Source: a virus. From it: a DNA stretch of 38,609 nucleotides. The stretch covers positions 1-38,609 of IMG/VR virus record IMGVR_UViG_3300034152_000467; one strand, given 5' to 3'. Positions 996-35,411 of this stretch are shown here, in pieces; the first letter of the stretch is position 1; every line of letters starts with the position of its first letter. The notes under the pieces were generated by a model, which worked only from the letters and a program-made list of their open reading frames with translations, did not search any database and was not told where the DNA came from. Both the position numbers and the translations under genes were made by a program.

Positions 996-1015
996 AACTA
1001 ATAAAGGAGTCAAAT

Positions 1016-1372
1016 ATGGAAATAGCTCTAAATGAAATACTAAAGGCAAAAAAAGCGATTGAAAAACTTTTGAACTCAGATTTGCCCATAAAAACTTCAT
1101 ACAAGCTAAGTAAAGTCATTGACCAGCTAAATGACGAATACAATAAAATTGGCGAAGCGCAACGCAAAATAATGAAAAAGTATGGTGAAGAAAAAGAGGG
1201 TGATAACGTAATTGTCTCGCCAGATAAAAGAGATGAGTTTCAAAAAGAGTTAGACGACTTTCTAAAGGAAAAAACTGTAATCGACTTCCAACCTATAAGC
1301 ATAGAAGATTTAGGCGATGCTAAACTTTCAGCAATGGAAGTGAGAGCAATGGCGTCATTCTTCAAGGAATAA
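1016..1372 (+). CDS. DUF1617-like phage protein
   Basis: 118 residues, strongly charged, mostly helical. The N-terminal helix (ALNEILKAKKAIEKLL) followed by a helical Lys/Glu stretch, a spacer and the C-terminal EDLGDAKLSAMEVRAM segment resembles the DUF1617 family of small phage proteins of unknown function. The start is set by AAAGGAG at 1003-1009. This ribosome site lies immediately 3' of the solo TnpB right end, in the position that would be the guide segment. It lies between two fibre-type genes, so a virion or assembly role is possible. Confidence 0.5.
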   Translation: MEIALNEILKAKKAIEKLLNSDLPIKTSYKLSKVIDQLNDEYNKIGEAQRKIMKKYGEEKEGDNVIVSPDKRDEFQKELDDFLKEKTVIDFQPISIEDLGDAKLSAMEVRAMASFFKE

Positions 1373-31026: not shown

Positions 31027-31372
31027 ATGCGCGGATTAGTTTACATTGCCGCTAATACGAATAACGGTAAAGTGTATGTAGGTCAGGGACTGACCGAATT
31101 TAAGCCTGTGGAGATGAAGGGCCTGGATGCAACCTAATCTATGAAACGGGAAGATCACAGCCTTTAGGCTGTGATTAGTTCACCTTTAACGCTATTTTTA
31201 GCATTTAGAGAACATGGAAAACAATTTTCGTTCTAAGAAAGTTAAATGTATAGAAACAGAGAAAATATTTATAAATATAACTGGAGCTGAAAAAGCTCTA
31301 GGCATTTGTCATGTCGGCAGAGCTTGCAGAAAAAATAGTAGTGCAGGGGGCTATCATTGGCAGTTTATATAA
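31027..31372 (+). pseudogene. Decayed GIY-YIG/NUMOD1 homing endonuclease gene
   Basis: Fragment 1 (31027-31086): MRGLVYIAANTNNGKVYVGQ, a perfect GIY-YIG N-terminus. It is then broken by the solo TnpB end (31087-31180). Fragment 2 (31183-31233): PLTLFLAFREHGKQFSF, the next GIY-YIG helix, in the same frame class. Fragment 3 (31235-31369), in another frame, is a NUMOD1-type DNA-binding repeat: KKVKCIETEKIFINITGAEK followed by ALGIC and AGGYHWQFI. About 20 residues between fragments 1 and 2, and the catalytic-domain rest between 2 and 3, are missing. No functional protein can be made. Confidence 0.85.
31087..31180 (+). mobile_element. Solo IS605/IS1341-type right end (TnpB 3' tail plus reRNA scaffold), copy 2
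   Basis: 94-base unit; 31087-31117 and the last 27 bases are identical to copy 1 at 896-995. Terminal hairpin 31154-31162 with 31167-31175, TTAGTT end. The tnpB frame reads ACGDEG...YETGRSQ, again preceded by an in-frame TAA. It sits exactly after the VYVGQ codons of the GIY-YIG relic. The bases 3' of the hairpin (31181-31200), where a TnpB guide would be, are homing-endonuclease sequence. Confidence 0.75.
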
Positions 31373-31382
31373 AGGTGGTAAT

Positions 31383-31886
31383 ATGGCAAATTCTAAAGCT
31401 AAAGGAAAACGTGGTGAACAAGGTTTAGTAATTATACTAAACGAAGCGTTTGGCGACAGACTCTTTAGAAGGACACCACACTCTGGTGCATTTGTTGGCG
31501 GTAAAAACAGAGAGATATCTGAAAATTTAGACTATAAAGAGGGATATGTTTCTGATATTATTACTCCTGCCAATTTTAATTTCATATTGGAGCACAAGTT
31601 CTATAATGACATTTCTTTCTGGGAGCTTTTTTCTGATAAATCTAATTGGAGCCAATGGATTAGACAAGCAGAAGAAGATGCGGCGTTTGTTGGCAAAGAG
31701 CCAATGGTTGTTATCAAATATAACAGGCACAAACGAATTGCTTTGGTTAAGAGTTCATACCTTATGAATTTCGTAACTTCTCTCTTTATTTGGAAACCAG
31801 AAAATTCAGACCACAGCTATTCTGTATCTTATTTAGAGAATTTATTGAAGCTTCCAAGAGCGTTTTGGTTTTCTGAGGACAACTAA
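31383..31886 (+). CDS. PD-(D/E)XK nuclease, Hjc/RecB-like
   Basis: 167 residues from ATG 31383, with AAAGGTGGTAATATGG; an ATG at 31311 lies in the NUMOD1 relic. KAKGKRGEQ with Glu12, SDI with Asp58, and ILEHK with Glu70 and Lys72 form the archaeal Hjc-type active site (E, D, ExK). A Holliday-junction resolvase or DNA end-processing nuclease for packaging is plausible, as T4 uses gp49 before packaging. It could instead be a free-standing homing partner. TAATG couples it to the GIY-YIG gene. Confidence 0.7.
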   Translation: MANSKAKGKRGEQGLVIILNEAFGDRLFRRTPHSGAFVGGKNREISENLDYKEGYVSDIITPANFNFILEHKFYNDISFWELFSDKSNWSQWIRQAEEDAAFVGKEPMVVIKYNRHKRIALVKSSYLMNFVTSLFIWKPENSDHSYSVSYLENLLKLPRAFWFSEDN

Positions 31887-32275
31887 TGTACGGAATTGTA
31901 TATAAAACTGTGAACACGATAAATGACAAAGTATACATCGGCCAAACTACGAAAACTTTGGGCGAAAGAAGAAATAAGCATTTTTCCGTATCTGTGTCAA
32001 AGCAATCTCGTTTTTACAACGCTTTGAAAAAATATACTCGAAATGACTTTGATTGGTTTGTATTAGCATACGCTAGAACAAAAAGAGAATTAGATGATTT
32101 AGAAGTAATGTACATCGCAGAAGCAAATTCTATGGATAGAACAGTTGGATACAATCTAAGGGACGGCGGCCAAGGAGGAAGATTATATTCGAGTAGTAGA
32201 AAATGTTGTAGACACAAACAAAATAACGCAGGCGGATATAAATGGAAGTTTGTAGCTGGAGAGCCTAATGGATAG
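31886..32275 (+). CDS. GIY-YIG nuclease with shortened C-terminus
   Basis: 129 residues. MYGIVYKTVNTINDKVYIGQ is the GIY-YIG motif; ALKKYTRNDFDWFV, ARTKRELDDLEVMYIAEA (the catalytic Glu) and GYNLRDGGQGG complete the nuclease domain. After about residue 96 it jumps to SSRKCCRHKQNNAGGYKWKFV, which is only the last part of a NUMOD1 repeat. The DNA-binding linker and most of the NUMOD region are missing, as if an internal deletion fused them. It overlaps the portal start by 8 bases. Catalytic residues look intact, so activity with poor targeting is possible. Confidence 0.75.
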   Translation: MYGIVYKTVNTINDKVYIGQTTKTLGERRNKHFSVSVSKQSRFYNALKKYTRNDFDWFVLAYARTKRELDDLEVMYIAEANSMDRTVGYNLRDGGQGGRLYSSSRKCCRHKQNNAGGYKWKFVAGEPNG

Positions 32276-35200
32276 AGATAGAGATGTAATAAAACGAGCG
32301 GAGACTATACAGAAGTTCTTCAATAAAATCAATTTATCTAGAGCTTATGATTTGTCTGCGCCTATGGCGGTAAGATCTGATGACGATTTTTACCAAGCAT
32401 TTGGTGCTTATAGAAGTTCAATTGAGAGTTTTACTGTAACAGACCAACAAAGAATACAAAGATATCGCGAATATGAGCAGATGTGCTACGTTCCTGAACT
32501 TCAAGGTGGTTTAGAGATTTATGCTGATGACGCAACTCTCTACAACGAAGAAGATAAAGTAATAAATAATCAAGCAGAAAATAACGATATAGAAGAAGCT
32601 CTTGAAGATTTGTGGTTTCGCTCTCTCGATATGAACTACTCACTTTGGCATATAGTTCTAAATATGTGCAAATACGGCGACGCTTTTTATGAAGTGATAC
32701 CCGATAATTATAAGTCTCCGAAAAGAATAAAATATATCCGATGGTTACCTCCTCAATTTGTTTTCAGGGTTGAGCAAGACGAGAATTTGATAGAGTTCAT
32801 AGTAAGAATACCCAAAGGCGACCCTTACAACAGTAGCCAAGTTACTGACACTCACACTGCTGGAGCTGGATTCAAGCTTGGCGGAGCAGGAGAAACAGAA
32901 GAAGTCCATCTAAAGCCTTGGCAAGTAGTTCATTTCAAAATCGACGATAAAGAATTTGACCCGTATGGAAAATCTGTATTAGAATCTGGACGTCTAGCAT
33001 TCAAACAAATGAAGCTTATTGAAGACGCAATGCTAATTTATAGAATAACAAGAGCTCCAGAAAGAAGAATATTCGGAATACCAGTTGGAACATTACCATA
33101 TAGGGAGGCGATGCAGAGAGTGCAAGATTTCCAACAAAGGTATAGGAAAACTCCATGGGTCGACCCTGGATCTGGTGAAATAAACTACAGAAACAACCCG
33201 CTTTGTATCGCTCTTGATACTAAAATTGATTTGCTTGATGGCAGACAAGAAACTCTTCAGACATTAATTGACGAGCACAAAGCAGGAAAGAAAAATTGGG
33301 TTTATTCTATTGATAGGAAAAACGCTAATCAGATCGTTCCTGGCGAAATCGAATGGGCCGGAGTAACTCGTAAAAATGCTGAGCTTGTTGAAGTTACAAT
33401 TGACAACGGCGAACGAGTTCGATGCACGCCCGATCATAAGTTCTTGCTTCGAAACGGCGAATATAAAGAGGCCCAGGATTTAGAAAAAGGCGATTCTTTG
33501 ATGCCAAAATATACCAAAGAATCTGAGAAGGGATATGAGTTAATCTTCAACCCTAAGAATAGAAAATATAGGCCAACTTATATGATGGTTGCACGATACA
33601 CTCAAGAAAAGGAGTGGAATCGCCGTTGGACTAAAAGAACTATCCACCACAAAGATTTCAAAAAAACCAACAACAATCCTGATAACCTTATAATTCTAGA
33701 GAACAAAGACCACGTAGGCTTACATGGCGATCTAACTCGTAGAAATTGGCAGGACCCCAGCTTCAGACAAAGACAGCTTGAATCAAGAAAAAAAGCTTGG
33801 GCAATTGCTTCTGATGAAAGAAGAAAGCAGCAGTCAGAGTTGATGGCTGAATACAATAAAAGTGATGCCCACAGAAAATCAGCCCGCAAAAGCAACAAGA
33901 ATCGTTGGAGAGACAATGGGTTCAGAACTAGAGCTTCTCAGAATATGAGGAAACCAAAATCAACAACTGAAGCAATGAAAATTAAGTTTGATGAAAAATT
34001 CTATCAGTTTGTTGATGCAGCTATTGTCAAGCACGATACACAAGATCAAGTTTTGTCTGATTTGAATTCTAATCCAGAATTTGTTTTGCACTTTGATTTG
34101 CTGACCCCGCTACAAAACACTAAACTTATCAAACAAACTTTGCGGGAAGCGTTTAGTCAAAAGGGCTACGATAACTTTGAGCAATACAGGTTTTCAATTG
34201 TTGATGACAACCGATTGACTTATGCCGACATCGAACAATATGTTGATATGGGTTGGTCTCAGAAAAAAATAGGTAACGAATTTGGCGTTAGTCGCTCTAA
34301 AATCCGAAATCTGCAAAGACGAAATCATAAGGTTGTTTCTGTTGTTTGGTTAAACGAAAGAGAAGACACTGGATGTATTACTGTTTCAAAATATCACAAC
34401 TTTGCAACTTCTGGTATCATCGTGAAAAATTCAATCAATGACGATTTCTTCCTGGCAAGAAGGCCTGATGGACAAGGCGTTACTATCGATACACTGCCAG
34501 GCGGAGCGCAGCTTGGAGAGATAGACGATGCTAGATATTTCAAAGAGAAAATCCTTAGGACTATGAGGATTCCTATTGCTTATCTAACAGGTGAAATGAC
34601 TGGAGATGTGGCAAAAACTTCATTATCGTCAATGGATGTAAGGTTTGCTAAAACAGTAGAAAGAGTGCAAAAACAAACTATAAAAGGCTTAGAGAAACTT
34701 GCTGTTGTCGAGCTTGCATTCAAAAGATTTTCAATAGAAGACATGCAAAACTTCCAACTTGGACTTACACCACCTTCGAAAATCTATGAGATGCAAGAGC
34801 TTGAAGTATTCAACCAGAAGTTGAACACAATTCAGTCAGCAACTCAAATAGCAGACCAAAATGGGAAACTATTTTTGCCAAAAGAGTGGTTATATAGACA
34901 GATAATGAAATTCAACGATGATGAGATTTCTAACATAAGGTTGATGCAACAAGCAGAACTAATGCAACAACAACAGGACAAAAATGCTATCGCCGCTGCA
35001 GAACAAGCCGCTACGATGGGAGCTCCTGAGGGAGTTGCTGGTGGAGTTGAAGCTGGCGCTCTTGGTGGCGAAGGACTTCCAGGAGCTGAAGCAGGAGCTG
35101 AAGCAGGAGCTGAAGCTGCACCACCAGAAGAAGCTGGTACAGAAGTTGCGACAGGCGGAGAAGCTGGGATAGAGTTAGCAAGTAAAATAATGAGAGTAGC

Positions 35201-35411
35201 AGGTCAAGAATTCTTAGTAGAAAACGAAGAAGACATTAGAGAGCTTATAAAATTTGTCAAACAGTATAAAGAAACCGAGAAAATCTCTCAAGATAAACCT
35301 AAAGCTAAACGTCGGCTTTTTGAGAATGGGTTCGAAGTGCTCTTCAAGAGAGGCGAACTCAGAGGTATTATCAAGAGGAATAAGAGTAAATCAAAAATAC
35401 TAAGTGACTAA
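32268..35411 (+). CDS. Portal protein (gp20-like) interrupted by an intein
   Basis: 1047 residues before splicing; 638 after removal of residues 313-721. Extein: N-terminal region with FGAYRSSIESFTVTDQQR; WHIVLNMCKYGDAFYEV; after the intein SINDDFFLARRPDGQGVTID, LPGGAQLGEIDDARYFKEKIL and MRIPIAYLTGE, which match T4 gp20. The portal dodecamer forms the DNA channel on which the prohead is built. The C-terminus carries an unusual Gly/Ala/Glu repeat (about residues 925-975). The intein sits just before the SINDDFF segment, a highly conserved part of the portal. Confidence 0.93.
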   Translation: MDRDRDVIKRAETIQKFFNKINLSRAYDLSAPMAVRSDDDFYQAFGAYRSSIESFTVTDQQRIQRYREYEQMCYVPELQGGLEIYADDATLYNEEDKVINNQAENNDIEEALEDLWFRSLDMNYSLWHIVLNMCKYGDAFYEVIPDNYKSPKRIKYIRWLPPQFVFRVEQDENLIEFIVRIPKGDPYNSSQVTDTHTAGAGFKLGGAGETEEVHLKPWQVVHFKIDDKEFDPYGKSVLESGRLAFKQMKLIEDAMLIYRITRAPERRIFGIPVGTLPYREAMQRVQDFQQRYRKTPWVDPGSGEINYRNNPLCIALDTKIDLLDGRQETLQTLIDEHKAGKKNWVYSIDRKNANQIVPGEIEWAGVTRKNAELVEVTIDNGERVRCTPDHKFLLRNGEYKEAQDLEKGDSLMPKYTKESEKGYELIFNPKNRKYRPTYMMVARYTQEKEWNRRWTKRTIHHKDFKKTNNNPDNLIILENKDHVGLHGDLTRRNWQDPSFRQRQLESRKKAWAIASDERRKQQSELMAEYNKSDAHRKSARKSNKNRWRDNGFRTRASQNMRKPKSTTEAMKIKFDEKFYQFVDAAIVKHDTQDQVLSDLNSNPEFVLHFDLLTPLQNTKLIKQTLREAFSQKGYDNFEQYRFSIVDDNRLTYADIEQYVDMGWSQKKIGNEFGVSRSKIRNLQRRNHKVVSVVWLNEREDTGCITVSKYHNFATSGIIVKNSINDDFFLARRPDGQGVTIDTLPGGAQLGEIDDARYFKEKILRTMRIPIAYLTGEMTGDVAKTSLSSMDVRFAKTVERVQKQTIKGLEKLAVVELAFKRFSIEDMQNFQLGLTPPSKIYEMQELEVFNQKLNTIQSATQIADQNGKLFLPKEWLYRQIMKFNDDEISNIRLMQQAELMQQQQDKNAIAAAEQAATMGAPEGVAGGVEAGALGGEGLPGAEAGAEAGAEAAPPEEAGTEVATGGEAGIELASKIMRVAGQEFLVENEEDIRELIKFVKQYKETEKISQDKPKAKRRLFENGFEVLFKRGELRGIIKRNKSKSKILSD
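33204..34430 (+). other. Intein with HNH homing endonuclease (residues 313-721 of the portal gene)
   Basis: Cys313 begins block A (CIALDTKIDLLDG). Block B is RVRCTPDHKFLL (TPDH in place of TxxH). The C-terminus is HNFATSGIIVKN with Asn721, then Ser722 as the first C-extein residue. Penultimate residue is Lys rather than the usual His. The middle carries an HNH nuclease (TIHHKDFKKTNNNPDNLIIL, DHVGLHG) and a helix-turn-helix (EFGVSRSKIRNLQRR). Arg codons CGN are frequent inside it and rare in the extein, as expected for imported DNA. Self-splicing is required for a working portal. Confidence 0.92.

Follow-up and report, generated by a model that had tools for sequence, protein, structure and literature searches.

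TnpB guide-RNA scaffolds in a T4-like phage fragment

The window analysed here, a virus record of 38,609 bases that forms a single fragment (38.6 kb), carries two sequences that are almost certainly complete scaffolds of the TnpB omegaRNA (reRNA), the right end of ISDra2-like IS200/IS605 elements, and that in their current state are most likely leftover DNA. Copy 1 (887-998, 112 nt, plus strand) is a partly decayed scaffold, and copy 2 (31078-31183, 106 nt, plus strand) is complete as an IS605-type right end; both are oriented with the transcription of neighboring genes. The terminase and portal genes of the window are T4-like, and the window is probably a piece of a larger myophage genome.

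The identification was based on a covariance model of 13 other omegaRNAs, with the window sequences left out. Searched with cmsearch, the window was matched by this model only at copy 1 (66.1 bits, E=2.1e-16) and copy 2 (87.6 bits, E=2.8e-22). TnpB-linked members score about 75–105 bits with the same model; the score of copy 2 is normal by this measure, that of copy 1 falls short of it, and by these scores both copies have the conserved core and helices of an IS200/IS605 right-end omegaRNA. Exact or lightly degenerate patterns of the copies matched nothing in the viral and genome collections; the trail to the family ran through weak matches to a gut phage contig (L003) and a Thermovirga transposase gene (L004). 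A family consensus was derived (TAGGGCAGGGACTGCCCGAATTAACGCCTGTGGAGATAGTAGGTTACGAGGTCTGCGAAGCAGGAAGCCCATTGGCTTTAGACAATGGGTAGTTCAC), and only the looser family pattern succeeded, matching at least 120 genome loci (Lachnospiraceae, other Bacillota, Patescibacteria and Wukongarchaeum) and a few viral contigs. In L129, L130, L131, L132, L134, Thermovirga and others, the canonical consensus sits at the tnpB 3′ end or overlaps it; among these, L132 is a phage contig with an ISDra2-like TnpB (PDB 8h1j/8bf8, E about 1e-68).

At the two copies the rest of the element is absent. No tnpB 3′ end lies beside either, the upstream sequence being GIY-YIG (copy 2) or intergenic, and the TnpB zinc-finger domain (PF07282) had no match in the 38.6-kb fragment or in two related phages. 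The copies have no left end in common, with nothing alike upstream of TAGG, and neither qualifies as a complete IS200/IS605 element, which would have tnpA and/or tnpB and a left-end hairpin with TAM. The preliminary description of this DNA had read them as orphan TnpB right ends with a preserved coding tail. Both were found at the places it named, and the orphan IS605-type right end stands; what it took for a coding tail is a structured guide RNA. It had also named membership in another RNA family as grounds for refutation, which applies by half: the sequence is indeed an RNA, but TnpB's own. No Rfam family was matched at its gathering cut-off, and for copy 2 RAGATH-18 (RF03064) gave no match at E≤5.

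Outside one internal loop, the two copies differ at 6 of 93 positions (∼93% identity), and copy 2 matches copy 1 at E=4e-31, which is not chance. In copy 2 coordinates, the identical blocks span 31 nt (31087-31117), 19 nt (31129-31147) and 29 nt (31152-31180), the first two as previously described and the third longer than the 27 nt given. The length difference of 6 nt was also correct and falls within the loop of stem 2. On the left the likeness continues through TAGGYCA (to 31079), and on the right as far as TTCAC in copy 2 or TTAAC in copy 1, so that the unit is longer than the described core, as had been suspected. The motif TAGGYCAKGG is alike in both copies; however, it is the 5′ hairpin of the omegaRNA rather than flank. 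It is likewise true that a 6-nt gap keeps the frame of a TnpB tail, but this is meaningless, as that frame has stops in both copies. The frame argument fails because the internal difference is a loop that has no fixed size among family members and need not be a multiple of three long; a TnpB coding tail preserved by frame was rejected on these two grounds. The impression of a TnpB tail arose because some TnpBs (e.g. L132) have a coding frame that runs through the RNA.

Fold and covariation

Five helices are supported by strong covariation among 17 family members, the window copies included. Paired cells made up 89.5% of the total, versus 79.7% in column shuffles and 29–43% with slid partners, and double-change cells numbered 46 versus 18 in shuffles. 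Copy 2 folds at −35.4 kcal/mol (z=−3.6) and has no mispair, keeping every family base pair (30/30 tested). Its 5′ hairpin (31081-31095, plus strand; GGTCAG-GGA-CTGACC) differs from the family form GGGCAG-GGA-CTGCCC by one compensated pair; across the family, column pair 6/16 of this hairpin is GC, GU, AU or UA. On the same strand, GAATT (31096-31100) pairs with AGTTC (31177-31181) to form the closing stem, and CCTGT (31105-31109) pairs with ACGGG (31146-31150). The variable loop of stem 2 (31118-31128, plus strand) is the sole strongly different part between the copies, and the 3′ hairpin (31153-31176, plus strand; GATCACAGCC-TTTA-GGCTGTGATT) has the architecture of the canonical AGCCCATTG..CAATGGGT hairpin.

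In copy 1, three pairs are lost, two of them as mispairs in the 5′ hairpin. This copy reads AGTTAAC for AGTTCAC and lacks the C of TTCAC, a nearly universal base that also closes the GAATT/AGTTC stem. Copy 1 is thus decaying, while the modeled fold of copy 2 suggests that it could still form a working guide.

The GIY-YIG pseudogene around copy 2

Copy 2 lies inside a GIY-YIG homing endonuclease gene, as the preliminary description proposed. The 5′ fragment of this gene (31028-31087, plus strand; MRGLVYIAANTNNGKVYVGQ) matches Pfam PF01541 (E=0.019 for 20 aa), and its final codons overlap the omegaRNA 5′ end. Directly after the RNA, a GIY-YIG fragment of 16 residues (31184-31233, plus strand; ..PLTLFLAFREHGKQFSF) ends in a stop and is frameshifted relative to a C-terminal endonuclease fragment of about 47 residues (31229-31372, plus strand; RSKKVKCIETEKIF...GGYHWQFI), which matches phage endonucleases by tblastn (best E=3e-5) as well as related loci. 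Comparison with the apparently intact paralogue at 31886 supports the earlier estimate that about 20 residues (about 60 nt) are missing at the RNA; farther along the gene, the greater part of the GIY-YIG domain and linker is lost as well, in addition to the frameshift. What is left of the GIY...YIG motif and catalytic domain is the first 20 aa of the domain and fragments. The gene is therefore a multiply deleted, frameshifted pseudogene, and for more reasons than the insertion, given the downstream deletions and frameshift.

The left junction of copy 2 cannot be placed within 9 nt because GTA GGT CAG suits both sequences: GTAGGTCAG fits the VGQ codons as well as the omegaRNA 5′ foot. What had been described as an exact insertion after VYVGQ is better explained by this junction, the shared GTAGGTCAG suggesting microhomology. 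Nor was the insertion clean, since target sequence is gone and there is no left end. In the two related phages (terminase 58% and 64% identical) the entire GIY-YIG and omegaRNA segment is missing, with 21 nt between the neighboring genes at that site in one relative and unrelated genes in the other; the model search found no omegaRNA in either. An intact GIY-YIG allele near enough for base-level comparison of the junctions, as the preliminary description had proposed, was not found. Relatives of the gene 3′ of copy 1 were not found either, and thus no empty site could be compared there.

Several other features of this region were observed. A second GIY-YIG endonuclease gene, apparently intact, lies at 31886-32275, directly 5′ of the portal gene, and is missing in relative L005. 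The portal gene (32268-35411) contains an HNH-domain intein; L005 apparently has an intein in its portal gene too, and L006 apparently has one in its terminase gene. A stretch of 35 bases (35084-35118) is identical in OM869700.1, a 5.2-kb rodent-associated virus record, in a gene annotated as an internal scaffolding protein.

Origin of the copies

We consider it fairly probable that both copies are remnants of IS605 insertions that lost their left parts by deletion and kept the right end. An ancestral phage would have been hit by an ISDra2-like IS200/IS605 element at at least two places, with tnpA, tnpB and the left end removed by later deletions. The deletion at copy 2 would have extended from within the GIY-YIG gene to the omegaRNA 5′ end, probably via the short repeat GTAGGTCAG, and would have included about 60 nt of target, the homing endonuclease gene decaying further afterwards. 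Sequence comparisons that favor a leftover include the matches of the window-excluded model, the family covariation, the consensus at TnpB right ends, the frequency of solo copies (see below) and the missing segment in two relatives. Against it, both left boundaries fall at the omegaRNA 5′ foot within about 2 nt, which is unexpected for two independent neutral deletions, and copy 2 keeps all 30 tested pairs inside a wrecked gene. The boundary agreement or the intact copy 2 could reflect selection for the RNA.

The same junctions could in principle have been produced by partial copying during TnpB-driven repair, in which a copy bearing the element served as template for the repair of a cut in the endonuclease gene, and synthesis that began at the right flank ended past the omegaRNA and was rejoined at the GTAGGTCAG microhomology. 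The precise right junction, the left microhomology and the loss of target at copy 2 would all agree with such an event. However, the end structure is the same as that expected from deletion of a full insert and nothing separates the two; we rate partial copying as highly improbable.

Solo scaffolds in other genomes

Of the 76 database copies that had 1.2 kb or more of upstream sequence (window excluded), 24 had no TnpB nearby; the solo number came out slightly higher in a count that used fewer TnpB queries. The solo scaffolds comprise mini-elements with a left end plus omegaRNA (L035, L056, L061, L079 and L133 of Thermus phage TMA), right-end-only copies, copies with a TnpB remnant and copies with a conserved 200-nt leader. 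A general start of solo copies exactly at the RNA edge, which would argue for selection, did not emerge, since the sequence upstream of some (e.g. L009) may be the decayed tail of a TnpB. The genome of Lachnoanaerobaculum saburreum has 12 scaffolds versus 7 TnpB domain matches. Stages of loss can be seen in the Thermus phages: YS40_Isch (L134, L137 and L138) carries the full element as well as a mini-element and a right-end stub of 26 nt, and in the TMA mini-element (L133:2905-3096) tnpA and tnpB are cleanly excised, so that the left end, which has a TATAAT-like box, joins the scaffold without a gap. Similar decay has been published, including repeat-mediated core deletion of IS605 elements in Haloquadratum (PMC3119063) and reduction to ends-only sequence in Halanaerobium (PMC7290912); in addition, 36% of RAGATH-18 RNAs do not adjoin IS607 TnpB (PMC11061315). 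Given these published cases, the 24 solo copies and the Thermus phage series, a solo scaffold is an ordinary outcome. Solo TnpB guide scaffolds are a known kind, to which the window copies add a further case; they occur in phages, archaea and many gut bacteria, and an apparent “TnpB tail” can be a guide-RNA scaffold that has outlived its nuclease.

The existence of mini-elements in the same family raises the alternative that the window copies are themselves non-autonomous units of the PATE/MITE type, moved by TnpA in trans. We regard this as very unlikely, since the copies have no common left end and are unlike upstream of TAGG, and coding sequence abuts copy 2 right up to the RNA. Of the two subterminal palindromes of a PATE or MITE they have only the right one, and their left flanks differ.

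Two further groups of scaffolds were observed. A Wukongarchaeum MAG, to which loci L010, L022, L046, L050, L064 and L081 belong, contains 27 scaffolds of the family, several of them mini-elements with a common left end. Nine solo scaffolds (L013, L017, L019, L026, L040, L053, L104, L118 and L124) have in common the 200-nt leader (TTGATAACTGTATATA...GCGAAAACCAAGC...CACGTAAAATATACAAGG) and no adjoining TnpB wherever upstream sequence suffices to judge; from their sequences, they may be stand-alone guide RNA genes that form a class of their own. One of them, L017, had a weak RAGATH-18 match (22 bits, cut-off 44.9).

Guides and possible use in trans

The RNA from an IS200/IS605 right end carries the flanking sequence as its guide (Karvelis et al., PMC8612924). 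By analogy with the ISDra2 reRNA (PMC8612924), the guide position of copy 2 is 31184-31203 (plus strand; CTTTAACGCTATTTTTAGCA), which is GIY-YIG pseudogene sequence, and that of copy 1 is 999-1018 (plus strand; TAATAAAGGAGTCAAATATG), which is the ribosome site and start of the next gene. The copy 2 guide had no second match in the window at up to 1 mismatch in 12 nt, and across the window and the two relatives only the copies' own loci matched either guide fully, with no other convincing target. In a related phage, a methyltransferase gene contains a 21-nt match (G002:30996-31016; L008:1498-1518) in which 20 of 21 bases agree with the scaffold 3′ end and the start of the copy 2 guide (TGTGATTAGTT.ACCTTTAA). 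We take this match as chance, as it is ordinary protein coding sequence with the rest of the RNA absent. A promoter scan found no sigma-70-type promoter near copy 1. Boxes of the form TATAAATA are somewhat enriched in the window (9 versus 3.9 expected), and a scan of the window placed none immediately 5′ of copy 1 or copy 2.

These results bear on whether the copies act as guides in trans, with a TnpB or a nuclease-dead TldR from elsewhere in the phage or host loading the RNAs and cutting or repressing matching DNA, for example in a competing phage whose GIY-YIG allele is intact. Such use is conceivable because the phage genome is incomplete, and the intact fold of copy 2, the coincidence of both copies' boundaries with those of the RNA and their orientation with the neighboring genes are in keeping with it. 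Furthermore, Thermus phage TMA has a solo omegaRNA with TnpB elsewhere in its genome, and the use of gRNAs in trans has been proposed for TldR loci (PMC13418256). On the other side are the lack of a TnpB domain in 38.6 kb, of a well-matching target in the window or two relatives and of a promoter-like site near copy 1, along with the three pairs lost by copy 1, including the near-universal TTCAC end. We therefore view trans-acting guides as an unlikely alternative. It is decidedly doubtful that a T4-like lytic phage keeps nuclease-free TnpB guide RNAs that steer host- or phage-supplied TnpB/TldR against rival alleles, for example a homing endonuclease gene that is still intact. Under the preferred account of deletion leftovers, copy 2 might still be bound by TnpB in trans, carrying 16–20 nt of the pseudogene as guide. 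The loading of solo scaffolds by other TnpB or TldR proteins is a testable question, and copy 2, with its intact fold, is well suited to a clean test.

Comparison with known systems

The window copies resemble ISDra2-type reRNAs in having the 5′ hairpin, the GAATT/AGTTC and CCTGT/ACAGG stems, the 3′ hairpin and TTCAC, as in the TnpB-linked copies analysed; unlike these, they have no adjoining tnpB and no left end, and their internal loop is distinct in sequence and length. The link to ISDra2 itself runs through the L132 TnpB protein. RAGATH-18 (RF03064), the reRNA of IS607 TnpB, is also a guide scaffold, yet its model does not match the window copies even at E=5. Like PATEs and IS605-derived MITEs (PMC3119063), the copies are IS605-derived, too short for a transposase and have probably lost their core by deletion between short repeats; PATEs, however, keep both ends, whereas the window copies keep only the right. 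The mini-elements of Thermus phages TMA and YS40_Isch differ in keeping a left end with promoter-like sequence, but they belong to the same RNA family, reside in large myophages and, like the copies described here, have no TnpB at the locus.
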